Positions 35,201-50,200 of a DNA stretch of 64,000 bases are shown here, piece after piece; position 1 is the first letter of the stretch; each line of letters opens with the position of its first letter. The stretch is from Ridgeia piscesae (lineage: Eukaryota > Annelida > Polychaeta > Sabellida > Siboglinidae). The notes under the pieces were generated by a model. That model was not told where the DNA came from. It ran no database searches and saw nothing but the letters and a program-made list of their open reading frames with translations. The translations under genes and the position numbers were made by a program. The stretch is taken from the NCBI GenBank assembly GCA_025642075.2, contig JAODUO010000430.1, positions 110,001 to 174,000 of the forward strand, read 5' to 3'.

Positions 35201-38200
35201 ATGTGAAACTAATCCGAGAACTACGAGAAGAAATTGCCCGACTCAGGACGTTGCTAGGTGGACACATCGTGAGTTAGTTGGTGTCTGTAACGGTGCATGT
35301 TATTGATGGATCTATTGTATGGTTTTCTTAGCTCAAGCTTTCTAAAGCTTTCGACCTAATGTCGCATTTTCGGTTTCGTTTCTGAGGCAGAAATAACGGA
35401 GACAGAATGGTGTTTGTTTACATACATGTTAAATGCACAGTTTGTTGGTCAAATTCAAAACCCTGACCATTGACTCCACCAGGAGTGTTGGCCAATATAC
35501 CGACAAGACAAGACAATACTAGCATTGTGACTGTAGTTAGTATTCACCAAATTACATGAGGAAATCGACATGGTTATTTTTATTATTATTATATTCCAAA
35601 CTTATTAAAACAAGATTTTTTATTTCACAACTAATAAATTTTGACCACTGTTGGTGACCTTCATCAGGAATGGTATCTTCGTGAAGGTCGAAACGTTGAT
35701 ATGAGTTGAAATATATTGCTTGTGAAATAAGAAATCTTGTTTTAGCATAGTATTCTTGATAACTTGATGAACATTTTCATGAATATATTCCAAACTTATT
35801 GGGGACTTCTTCCTGCTTCTTAGTAGTATATCATATATTTGATGTTATGAGAACATTTTCTTGTAAAAGGTTTCTTGTAGACTTAATTGTTGTTTGCAGT
35901 AGCCGTGTATGTTTCCTGTAATGTGTATGGTTCGATATTTATCTAGGTGGGCTTCTGTGTTTGTTTAGGATAACATTGTCACGCCAAAGGTTCAGGAAAA
36001 ACTGCACGAGAACGAGGCTCGGGTGAGTGATGTAGAACTCTTCACTGTTAGAGGTTGTAATTATCAGTGCAGTCACACAGATGTTTAACCTGTGGCTCTG
36101 AATGTGATACTGGTGATATTTATAGTGAACCGTGTTCCCTAAGTCGGCGGTAATTATTAATGTTAATACAAAACCTGGTGTTTCCATTACTAAATTGATA
36201 AGCCATCTTAGAACCAATAATATTAGCAGCACGTGTAGATGATGATTTTAATGACAAGTTACATTAATGGTAATGACAATTTAGTTATCTATCAGTTGCT
36301 GTAATTATGGGATGTTATAGTCGTCACCATGGTAATTTATATCACATGACTAATTACTAAAGCATAATTTCCATCAAGTTTACAAAATGAATGATGCACG
36401 TGTGACATTCTGTCATGTGTTTGAGGAAATTATGACTACAAATATTATTCCTTGTGACAGAAAAATAAAAAAGTAGATTTTTATGTAAGTCTTCCAATCC
36501 ATGAATTGCTTGCAGGTGAAAGTTCTCACTGATGAGTGGACTGGAAAATGGAAAGAAATGGCCAACATTCTGAAGGTATGGACGCTCCATATCACCTCCA
36601 TTTTGGCTGCCCTAATCTAATCTAATGTAGCATGCCTTTGTGCAAACTTGGTCGGTTGTTTCTTGAAATGAGTCTGTGGACAATTGCTTTATTCAGAAAT
36701 AGTTTTTTACTATTTATTCTGATCATGGTTATATCATAAACATAGCACTTTGCTAAGAATAACTGTTAGCAAGTTGATCAGTTGATGTATGCGAGTATAT
36801 AATTTACTCAGCTATAGTGTGTAACTGTTGTCAGATAACCACACCTGTGCAACTGTACGGAAATATGTTTCCAAATCAGTGATGTCTGATGGGAGTTGTT
36901 CAGTCCATGCAACATGTTTGTTGTGTATGTCGATTACAACTTGCCAGTTACAACTGACCAGTGACTAGAGATTGCCTAAATTTGCAAAGTACAAAAACAG
37001 TTTTGTATTTACTCAGACCACTCCAGCCATCCACGGTGTGTATCTCGCAATCTTTACGATCAAAATCAGCTATTTGCATGAACATAAGCAGTGCTCACTA
37101 GATAGCGCTAGTGTAGCAGTTTATTTCCTCTGACGTGTACTGAAGACCAAACATTAATGCCCGTAAAGTAATGGTGAATATATTTTCTGCATTTCACAGA
37201 CTCGTCCAACCAACTGCTAGACAATGTTCATTATGAGTGTCACTGTGTGTTTTAGGAAGAGCGTAACTTGGAACTGCGGAAGTCAGGACTGGGCGTGGTG
37301 CTCGACTCAGAGCTGCCCCATCTCATTGGAATTGATGATGACATCCTCAGTACAGGCATCATGCTCTACCATCTCAAGGTTTGTCACAGGGCTTTTCATT
37401 GGCTCATTGTTTGTTACAGGGCTTTTCATTGGCCATGCCATCTCTGTTTGTTACTGATAATTTCAGCGACTCAGTGTGTGTTCTCTAGAGTTTCATTGAC
37501 TATCGCAAAGTTTTTTAGTGGCCGTTTCATTGGCTTCAAATTTCTGACTGGGATTTTTATTTTATTACCTTCAAGGCTTTGTATAATTTTCCATTGTTTT
37601 TATTACACCAACACAATTGTCATTACAGCTGCAATAGGTAATTATTGTTAAAAAAAAGTGTGTATATTTCAGACGACTTCAGGACGAAATTGTAATGTTT
37701 TAAAAGATTCTGGGTGATAACAACGCTGAATGATTTGTTTCACACTGTTTTCTGTTGTTTCTGATGTTGGAGTAATTAGGACCTACTGGGACATGTGTGC
37801 TTAGGTGAATTTGCTGTAGCTTAATTACATTTGTATCATTTCTCATTTACCCAGGACTGCCACACAACCATTGGCACGACAGACGCTCCCAAACAACAGG
37901 ACATAGGTAACATATCACATTTGTCACTTTTCACTCTTATTAGTCACACGTAAAACATTTTACTAGCAACAACGCAGTTCCTCAGAAACACAGCTGCAGA
38001 GGGGGATTTACTGACATAAAATTAAATAAGTTACATTTTAGCAGTTTTATGTAGTGTTATGGATCGTTTCTGTGGTTGTTACTAACTACCGTCGGGTCTG
38101 TCTGTGTCAGTGTTATCAAGTAATTGACACTAACTACCGTCATGTCTGTCTGTGTCAGTGTTAGCAAGTAATTGACACTAACTACCGTCATGTCTGTCTG

Positions 38201-47200: not shown

Positions 47201-50200
47201 AGTGTTATCAAGTAATTGACACTAACTACCGTCGTGTCTGTCTGTGTCAGTGTTATCAAGTAATTGACACTAACTACCGTCGTGTCTGTCTGTGTCAGTG
47301 TTATCAAGTAATTGACACTAACTACCGTCGTGTCTGTCTGTGTCAGTGTTATCAAGTAATTGACACTAACTACTGTCGTGTCTGTCTGTGTCAGTGTTGT
47401 CGGGTGTTGACATGGAGCCTGAGCACTGCATCATTGAGCACAACAACGGTGACGTGACGCTGGTACCACTTGGCACGGCGGCATGCACTGTCAATGGCAT
47501 TGCCGTGTCAGGCCCAACGAAACTCAATCAAGGTATGTGACTTCATTTCCTTTTTTGTTGAAACATCACATCAGAGTTCGGTCCATAATTCATGTAAAAT
47601 ATATTTTGTTGTGGCTCCATGAATACATGAAATATTTCCTAAACCCGAAAAAAAACCACCTTGAAATCCCACACATGGGAGATCTCCAAGTATTTATTTG
47701 TTTGGAATATCTGATCTCACAAACTGATGCCATCAAGGTAAATTTGTCTCCTACACGTAGCGAGTGATTAAACTGCATGTCGCGTTGTATGTCACTGGCA
47801 GGAGCCGTGATCCTACTTGGCAAGACGAACATGTTTCGGTTCAACCACCCAGCAGAGGCAGCAAAACTACGAGCTGAATTCAAAACAGTAAGTAGCAAAT
47901 ATTCTAAATATCAATATGCGAATTTTGAGGCAGTGTAAGTGCATCTCCAGCTGGGTGCCCGGGTCCACTGGCCTGTATCTGTGTTCATTCACTTTCTGGG
48001 ATTATTAATCTCGGATTTACCAGCTGGTGATATTCCAGCAGGTGATATATTTAAAATATCCCAGAGGTAATTATTTAAAGTTACTTAAATTTTCAGTGGA
48101 CAACATAAAAGTAAACAGAATATAAAAACAATAAATCTATGGCAATATAATAGACACCAATGCATAGCCTTATGCAGAGACCCGTCCACGCATCATTTGG
48201 ATGGGTAACACACGTTATGGACGGGTAGAAATATCGGTGGACGGGTAAAACATAGGAGCAAAAAAAGACATTGTCAGGTATGCCTTGAAAATGGGTGTCA
48301 CGTGTGTGTTTGTTGTTCCATTTCTGGTCATAAAGTACATTTCAGTTGGTCTGTAGGTATGTGAGTTCACATCCATTTGTCCACCATAAAAGGTTTGATT
48401 CACAACATTTATATATTGCATAAGGCCCTGCTCCAAAAATTCAGCTACGAAGCTCTTTGATATTCTAAACGATGACAATATTTCCATATTCAATTCAATG
48501 AACTGCTAGTTAATAATGACCACCAATGCCTATTGCAGGGCACCAAACACCCAACTAATATTTAGTAGAATGCTCAGTTTTCAACTTCAGTGAGTCATTT
48601 ATATCTAGATCCTGGTGGTACATAGAACTTCTCCTGTTAACCCGGTAGGTCTGAGCTGATAGTTGTTGCTTCCATGTTGCCCAATGCACAAATTCAGCAA
48701 TCTTAATGTACAAGTCGCACAAAGTAATATTTGTATGCTCTGTTCTCTCAGACTCGAACCTTGAGCATGAGTCGAGCGTCTCTTCTCAGTCAGTCGATGT
48801 CAGACTTGTATCGTTCAACTGAAAACCTTACCTTGATGACTACAGGGTATGTCATTACTTCACACACACACACATACATATGTACACATATATATATATA
48901 TATATATATATATACATATACATATACATATACATATACATATACATATACATATACATATACATATACATATACATATAGTATGTATGTATGTATGTAT
49001 GTATGTATGTATGTATGTATGTATGTATGTATGTATGTATGTATGTATGTATATGTGTATATATTAAATATTCAATGACATTTTAGAAAATTTGTTTAAA
49101 ATATTTCATCTTATTTTTATACATGTATTGACTGTATTTATTTATATATGCTATCGTTTAGTATGTGTTTCACATGTAAATAGAGTAATAATTAGTTTTA
49201 TTGATATATTTTACTCATCGTCATTAATTATATAATTATAGTATTTAATTAACAGTTTTAATATGAATAATTTTACATTTCTAAATTTTTTTCCTGAATG
49301 TAAATTTTACAGTCATATTTATTATTATTAATATTATTTTTAACACATCATAAATAGGTTTATATTTTATTTTACAGTGCTTTGAGCATATTTGGATATT
49401 TATGCTTTATAAATAATAAATATTATATATATATATATATATATATATATATATATATATATATATATATAATATATATATATATATATATATATATATA
49501 TATATATATATATATATATATGTGTGTTTTGGTTATTTACACCTATGAAAATATATTTAAATATCAAGATCACAATAGATCTATGCATTATTTATAAAAA
49601 ATAAATGAAGAAATGCTGCTCTTTGGATATAAATTAAGCCAAGTTTAACAGATTTAGCATTTCATATATGCCTGTTTTGGCACAGGAAATGTTATACAAT
49701 TTTTCTTTCTCCAGTTGGGAGATGGAGGAGAACCACAAGGAACTGTTGGTTGCCCTCGACGACAAGAGGTGAGGAGGATTAAGTTTTGGGACAAATATAT
49801 TGCGTACATCTCACAAAACATACTGGAACGGAGAAACAAAGCTTAAACAAGATTTCTTTTGAAACTCACTTTAGAGCACCTTGTCCCCAATGAATTCAGA
49901 TGCATTGTAAATGTGTATTATTTCTACAGAAAACACCCCTTTGTAACGGTGAGGGGGGCCATTGTTCCTAGACTCTCATAGGAGCTACATGTTAGCACAT
50001 CTGCCTGGCATACTGGTATGTTTGGTGATAAAACCTGGCTCTCAACATTGGAGACAATGTATCCCTCATGAATTGGAGAATCACTTTAATGTCAGTCCTG
50101 TCTCAATCTGGGACGTAAAACTACAATGACAAGCACCTGGCAGTGACCACACTCGGTGGCAGCCTAGAAAGGCCGGCTTGGCATGAATGTTGTGAAAATG

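Follow-up and report, generated by a model that had tools for sequence, protein, structure and literature searches.

The 64-kb window analysed here (64,000 nucleotides of contig JAODUO010000430.1 of the annelid Ridgeia piscesae, assembly GCA_025642075.2; positions are those of the window) contains a KIF16B-type kinesin-3 gene on the plus strand, with exons from about 28842 to 62005. One intron of this gene is occupied almost throughout by a tandem array of a 48-bp unit that carries the signals of a 3' splice site, and the last copy of the array is the true acceptor of the following exon. The features of this part of the gene are as follows:

37855..37906, plus strand: exon before the array intron, ending in QDI, with donor TAG/GTAACA (from the open frame, GT-AG limits and orthologues)
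37907..47394, plus strand: intron of 9,488 bases, array nearly throughout
38081..47398, plus strand: tandem array of a 48-bp unit, about 194 copies, with ACTAAC, TGTCTGTCTGTGT and CAG in most (from Tandem Repeats Finder, TRF, and wraparound alignment)
about 44448..44676, plus strand: disordered units, rich in small insertions and deletions
47370..47394, plus strand: true acceptor region, formed by the terminal copy (CAG at 47392-47394, score 7.0)
47395..47412, plus strand: exon start resembling the last 19 bases of the unit; TGTT exact, the rest suggestive
47395..47532, plus strand: exon after the array, 138 bases, part of the FHA domain, donor CAAG/GTATGT at 47532

Kinesin gene and its true splice junction

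The exon limits of the kinesin gene carry GT-AG. Its best match is the public protein NP493_430g01016 (P0001 below), with 99% identity across 89% of the queried part; kinesin motor and FHA domains are present in this protein, and orthologues of the gene occur in molluscs, annelids, nemerteans, chordates and arthropods. The donor after 37906 and the acceptor CAG before 47395 give an in-phase join, QDI-VLSG, and P0001 reads QDIVLSGVD, i.e., it joins the expected exons. Alignment of 18 orthologues shows no variation at I456 and at least 90% conservation at D455 and G460. By phase, orthologues and the public gene model, the true junction is the last array copy, and the gene, donor and true acceptor proposed by the sequence-only reading that preceded this analysis are borne out. 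The V at the junction is residue 457 of P0001, a model with missing pieces: the exon piece DDVGLIPRI is absent, and the model reads past the donor at 50774 (QQVGSRSP...).

Organization and variation of the array

TRF reported a period of 48, 194.7 copies and 96% matches, with the units head-to-tail in the sense strand of the kinesin gene. Wraparound alignment resolved 194 units followed by the terminal copy, which finishes inside the exon. The branch-like ACTAAC is present in 167 of the 194 non-terminal units, the tract TGTCTGTCTGTGT in 184, CAG in 187 and AG in 189; ACTAAC, tract and CAG occur together in 157. The distance from the branch A to the G of CAG in the unit is 25 nucleotides (nt). 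The description of the unit as a branch-like site with CAG 25 bases further on holds. As to extent, the earlier reading gave about 190 units over 38081..47394; the array ends at 47398, 4 nt inside the exon, and it contains the disordered segment, which had gone unmentioned.

Five columns of the unit (3, 9, 10, 14 and 36) fall below 95% consensus. The chief variants replace T by A within ACTAAC and T by G past CAG; two more lie in the spacer. These structured variants form ordered blocks along the array. Adjacent units resemble one another (0.968) more than in any of 500 shuffled orders (maximum 0.962), an excess that is what local turnover gives. Close to the exon, 11 units in one run and 15 in another are identical. 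Conservation of functional columns does not differ from that of the other columns (means 0.987 vs. 0.965, Mann-Whitney p 0.23); there is therefore no sign that the copies have been kept as, or purged of, acceptors. The bases encoding VLSSN- or VLASN-stop are retained in 186 of the 194 units.

The unit was found at a single locus. A search of the 628-Mb genome (4,875 contigs), with simple repeats and very common words skipped, gave at least 88 matches, all within this intron, and none at the several loci that a dispersed satellite would occupy. A Ridgeia genome, possibly another than the one searched, has been published from Illumina libraries (PMC9921365). No Rfam families or tRNA genes were found within the 64-kb window.

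Strength of the repeated splice sites

Acceptors were scored with a matrix built from the gene's remaining 20 called acceptors, a small set that says nothing on regulation. In leave-one-out comparison the true acceptor (7.0) stands above 12 and below 8 of these 20. Scoring of the units with a splice-site model had been proposed in the sequence-only reading; 176 of the 187 unit CAGs equal or exceed the true acceptor, a level reached by 28 of the 1,340 other AGs of the gene. A second acceptor-like site, TAG/CAAG, lies 6 nt beyond CAG in 45 units (median score 6.05). The unit also carries a donor-like CAA/GTAATT 9 bases past CAG, with a score of 3.8 compared to 3.35 for the authentic donor after 37906 (matrix of 23 donors from the gene, this donor included).

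When exon 37855-37906 was joined in silico to 180 other full-consensus CAGs of the array, an early stop followed in 180 of 180 cases, through VLSSN in 135, VLASN in 40 and other readings in five. The early stop foreseen for the other copies is supported at these 180 sites, of which the last five do not read VLSSN or VLASN.

Sequestration of the decoy copies by RNA structure was considered and rejected (z 0.36 for the terminal 121 nt with RNA parameters, -0.26 for a unit dimer with DNA parameters).

Relation of the unit to the exon

The array crosses the junction 47394/47395 by four exact exon bases according to TRF, and perhaps by about 18. The exon start TGTTGTCGGGTG-TTGACA and the unit end TGTTATCAAGTAATTGACA agree at 14 of 19 positions. 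Among 20,000 shuffled versions of the exon start, one reached the score of this extension, 8. The likeness apart from TGTT was equalled by 154 of 20,000 shuffles. Descent of the unit from the exon beyond the first four bases is likely, though not proved. If the two are related, the unit would be the copy, since the exon side codes for the conserved residues D455, I456 and G460.

Each of the four mismatches pairs an exon G with a unit A; the sample is too small for this strand bias to be interpreted. A match of left-flank GTGGTTGTTACTAAC to the unit, seen by eye, was rejected, as 10,216 of 20,000 random places equal it.

Splice junction arrays in other kinesin genes

The recurrence of such arrays was examined in one gene family, the kinesins, of the same genome; myosin heads (75 places) are not in the sample. 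From 128 kinesin places listed, 120 were used, of which 91 lie inside 50 loci around kinesin exons (269,080 bases, loci partly overlapping) analysed with TRF; 66 have no stop in the match. These 66 exons yielded 114 called junctions (56 acceptors and 58 donors) with the matrix from the window gene. Five of the 114 lie inside arrays of period 12 or more: the acceptors on C573 and C283 and the donors on C895, C1533 and C1293. A sixth case, the donor on C836, was spotted by eye outside the called set. In all six, the repeats hold the junction plus exon bases.

Copies were sought by matching 28 or 20 boundary bases, for which shuffled introns gave a mean of at most 0.14 placements. The C573 acceptor (L052 6519-7667) has 20 copies with one mismatch in 28 bases and AG in all. 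The C895 donor (L016 1052-1529) has eight copies, and the C1533 donor (L047 552-1367) has 25, of which 24 carry GT. At the C836 donor (L051 3188-3763) a 36-bp array of about 16 copies includes the last 12 exon bases, AAGACCATCATG, plus GTGAGT, and another 15 copies differ from the 20 boundary bases by 0-2 mismatches. C283, with six copies at 4-5 mismatches in 28, and C1293, with 31 loose placements and GT kept in 10, are weaker cases. In C573, C895, C1533 and C836 the copies match or exceed the score of the true site; those of C283 and C1293 fall clearly below it.

Arrays make up 15.5% of 171,718 bases (20 regions), whereas the coding part of the exon matches, 11,625 bases, has 101 bases in arrays, all of them in six exons. 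Set against this array share, five of 114 junctions means that junctions lie in arrays less often than intron-rich DNA does and are no preferred target. We read this as minisatellites arising across genes, the exonic ones being lost and the junction-crossing ones persisting if they grow intronward. A mutational process that pervasively copies splice junctions in tandem throughout the Ridgeia genome is a tentative proposal, and on balance a doubtful one.

On C548 (L040 3411-4333) a 23-bp pyrimidine-rich array of about 40 copies stops 3 bp before an acceptor. Its unit contains no AG, so that what it repeats is a tract and not an acceptor.

Comparison with known repeats at splice sites

The statement of the sequence-only reading that no satellite of complete splice acceptors has been described does not hold. 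In amphioxus, mirages are reported as minisatellites across exon-intron boundaries, the acceptor side included (PMC3087553, PMC3902484), with TnC and PGBD5 added to the cases by the second of these papers. As in the amphioxus mirages (the globins BflGb6 and BflGb9, Adh3, TnC and PGBD5), the Ridgeia unit crosses an exon-intron boundary, which in those genes is on the acceptor or donor side, and many units with AG or GT signals are found together with local homogenisation (PMC3087553, PMC3902484). The sizes differ: BflGb6 is described with three or six units of 150-160 bp, Adh3 with units of 10-72 bp, and PGBD5 with an imperfect triplication of 108 bp, compared to about 194 copies of 48 bp in Ridgeia, an annelid. 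Splicing was checked in amphioxus, whereas the Ridgeia array is known from sequence alone. The array most probably belongs to this known kind, the mirages, and would be a large example of it.

A minisatellite that repeats a splice site is also known in intron 18 of human ABCA7, a variable number tandem repeat (VNTR) with a 25-bp unit that starts at the GT of the exon 18 donor (PMC5954066). Its copy number is reported to range from 12 to about 427, with a length of as much as 10,678 bp (PMC5954066). Unlike Ridgeia, where the acceptor is repeated, ABCA7 repeats the donor, and its length has been tied to skipping and expression in people. According to the same report, retention of one unit occurs at about 2% independently of length and causes a frameshift, while longer VNTRs are accompanied by more exon 19 skipping and lower total expression (PMC5954066).

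Boundary repeats that furnish spare splice sites are likewise a feature of the Rogers model of intron change by tandem duplication with splice signals, as cited in PMC3087553, and of human internal tandem repeats, for which repeats at exon-intron boundaries and new introns are described (PMC2812944). In contrast to both, an existing intron has grown in Ridgeia and no new intron was seen. Minisatellite-like arrays are reported in an earthworm intron, in an account whose available part makes no statement on splice sites (PMC12783039), and a Caenorhabditis elegans minisatellite has been linked to alternative splicing (PMC4039745).

Origin and splicing of the array

The array is most probably a mirage minisatellite, a duplicated splice junction that expanded nearly neutrally and of which the exon-nearest copy is used. 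We infer that a short segment across the 3' splice junction, comprising the branch-like site, the tract, CAG and the first exon bases, was duplicated in tandem, and that slippage or unequal exchange then raised the number to about 194 copies. The need to keep the exon readable would have left the intron side as the only direction of growth; the exon-nearest copy would have stayed the true acceptor, and the remaining copies would have turned into intron. By exon definition, the spliceosome would mostly pair the exon-nearest acceptor with the donor at 47532, 138 bases on. Leak to neighbouring copies would be at most small, each yielding VLSSN-stop inside the FHA domain. The next copies would make exons of 186, 234 and 282 bases (138 + 48n); these are not much worse by size, so any leak would be expected in the last few copies first. 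The published mirages are said not to disturb splicing, which we count in favour of near-neutral expansion, together with the crossing of the junction, the conserved exon side, the single locus of the unit, the arrays at other kinesin junctions, the even conservation of the unit columns, the likeness of adjacent units and the small share of coding bases in arrays.

Several points weigh against this interpretation. The score of the whole extension into the exon was attained at 65 of 20,000 random places and, among the 1,045 window places that follow a CAG, at six; the likeness without TGTT was attained at 1,050 of 20,000 random window places. No trace of the founding duplication was found at the left edge of the array, where 10,216 of 20,000 random places score as high. 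No predicted RNA structure marks out the terminal acceptor: the predicted unpaired probability of AG is 0.02-0.06 at all 18 sites, the terminal one included. Finally, co-transcriptional splicing might favour the copies made first.

The result for the likeness beyond TGTT would fit an ordinary intron minisatellite without exon descent that merely reaches the acceptor, the remaining likeness being chance. Arrays of other sequence are common in the kinesin gene and in the genome, and that on C548 stops just short of an acceptor. This origin is nevertheless unlikely, as just a single shuffle reached the whole extension, the unit carries an entire acceptor and ends within the exon, and exon bases are part of the repeat in all four clear cases from other genes. 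Still less likely is the idea, raised by the sequence-only reading, that copy number tunes the output of the gene, array units being spliced appreciably and the resulting VLSSN-stop messages decaying. The unit scores and the early stop behind each of the 180 alternative CAGs agree with such a role, as does the decrease of expression with length in ABCA7 (PMC5954066). However, one-unit retention in ABCA7 is independent of length (PMC5954066), the amphioxus mirages seem not to interfere with regular splicing (PMC3087553, PMC3902484), and the unit columns are without sign of constraint. The findings in ABCA7 and amphioxus bear on copy-number tuning in both directions.

An error of assembly, in the array or in its size, is very improbable. 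The disordered segment and scattered one-base deletions resemble unpolished sequence, but the five-column variants are ordered in blocks and similar junction arrays occur in other genes. Even more remote is stepwise splicing, in which the unit would act as a 9-nt in-frame microexon (CAG/TGTTATCAA/GTAATT), giving stepwise removal of the intron or VLS-M inserts in the protein. Insertion of the microexon would preserve the frame, and CAAGTAATT is kept in 190 of 194 units with a donor score above the authentic one; yet the score of the unit donor is reached by 178 of the gene's 1,707 GTs, and the introns between adjacent units would be very short, 39 nt. Nearly neutral expansion of a duplicated junction accounts best for the array.

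Other repeats and frames in the window

Two other intron minisatellites of the kinesin gene, at 56425-59093 (20 bp x 135) and 60262-61169 (32 bp x 28), are not at a called junction. The first contains 110 AGs with a median acceptor score of -1.2 and a maximum of 7.2, and the 32-bp array scores -0.8; the median is 2.0 for a 34-bp array and 0.4 (maximum 10.0) for a 51-bp array. On these AG scores, the remaining arrays of the window were rejected as rows of acceptors, and none was seen ending at a called exon limit.

A 51-bp array, read in frame as ETGEEQVSRSNHLPFTY-like repeats, is entered by a C2H2 zinc-finger frame at 6159-7766 (window 4507-7766, minus strand), and may descend from zinc-finger coding sequence. 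A frame at 14658-15371, minus strand, has a weak match to the integrase core PF00665 (23.3 bits, under the cut-off of 32.6) and looks like a retroelement remnant.

Implications

The array intron, with about 190 acceptors scoring on a par with the true one, offers a natural setting in which to see which of many equal sites the spliceosome picks: the first made, the nearest to the donor or the nearest to the exon. The other kinesin cases suggest that Ridgeia holds many comparable settings, for acceptors as well as donors, and they extend to an annelid the mirage phenomenon, which is reported for amphioxus in the literature found, a set that does not include the original Adh mirage paper. If pervasive copying of junctions were true genome-wide, thousands of junctions would stand beside rows of intact decoys, accurate splicing would have to depend on position next to the exon and not on the strength of the site, and individuals could differ in expression with the length of their arrays, as with ABCA7.

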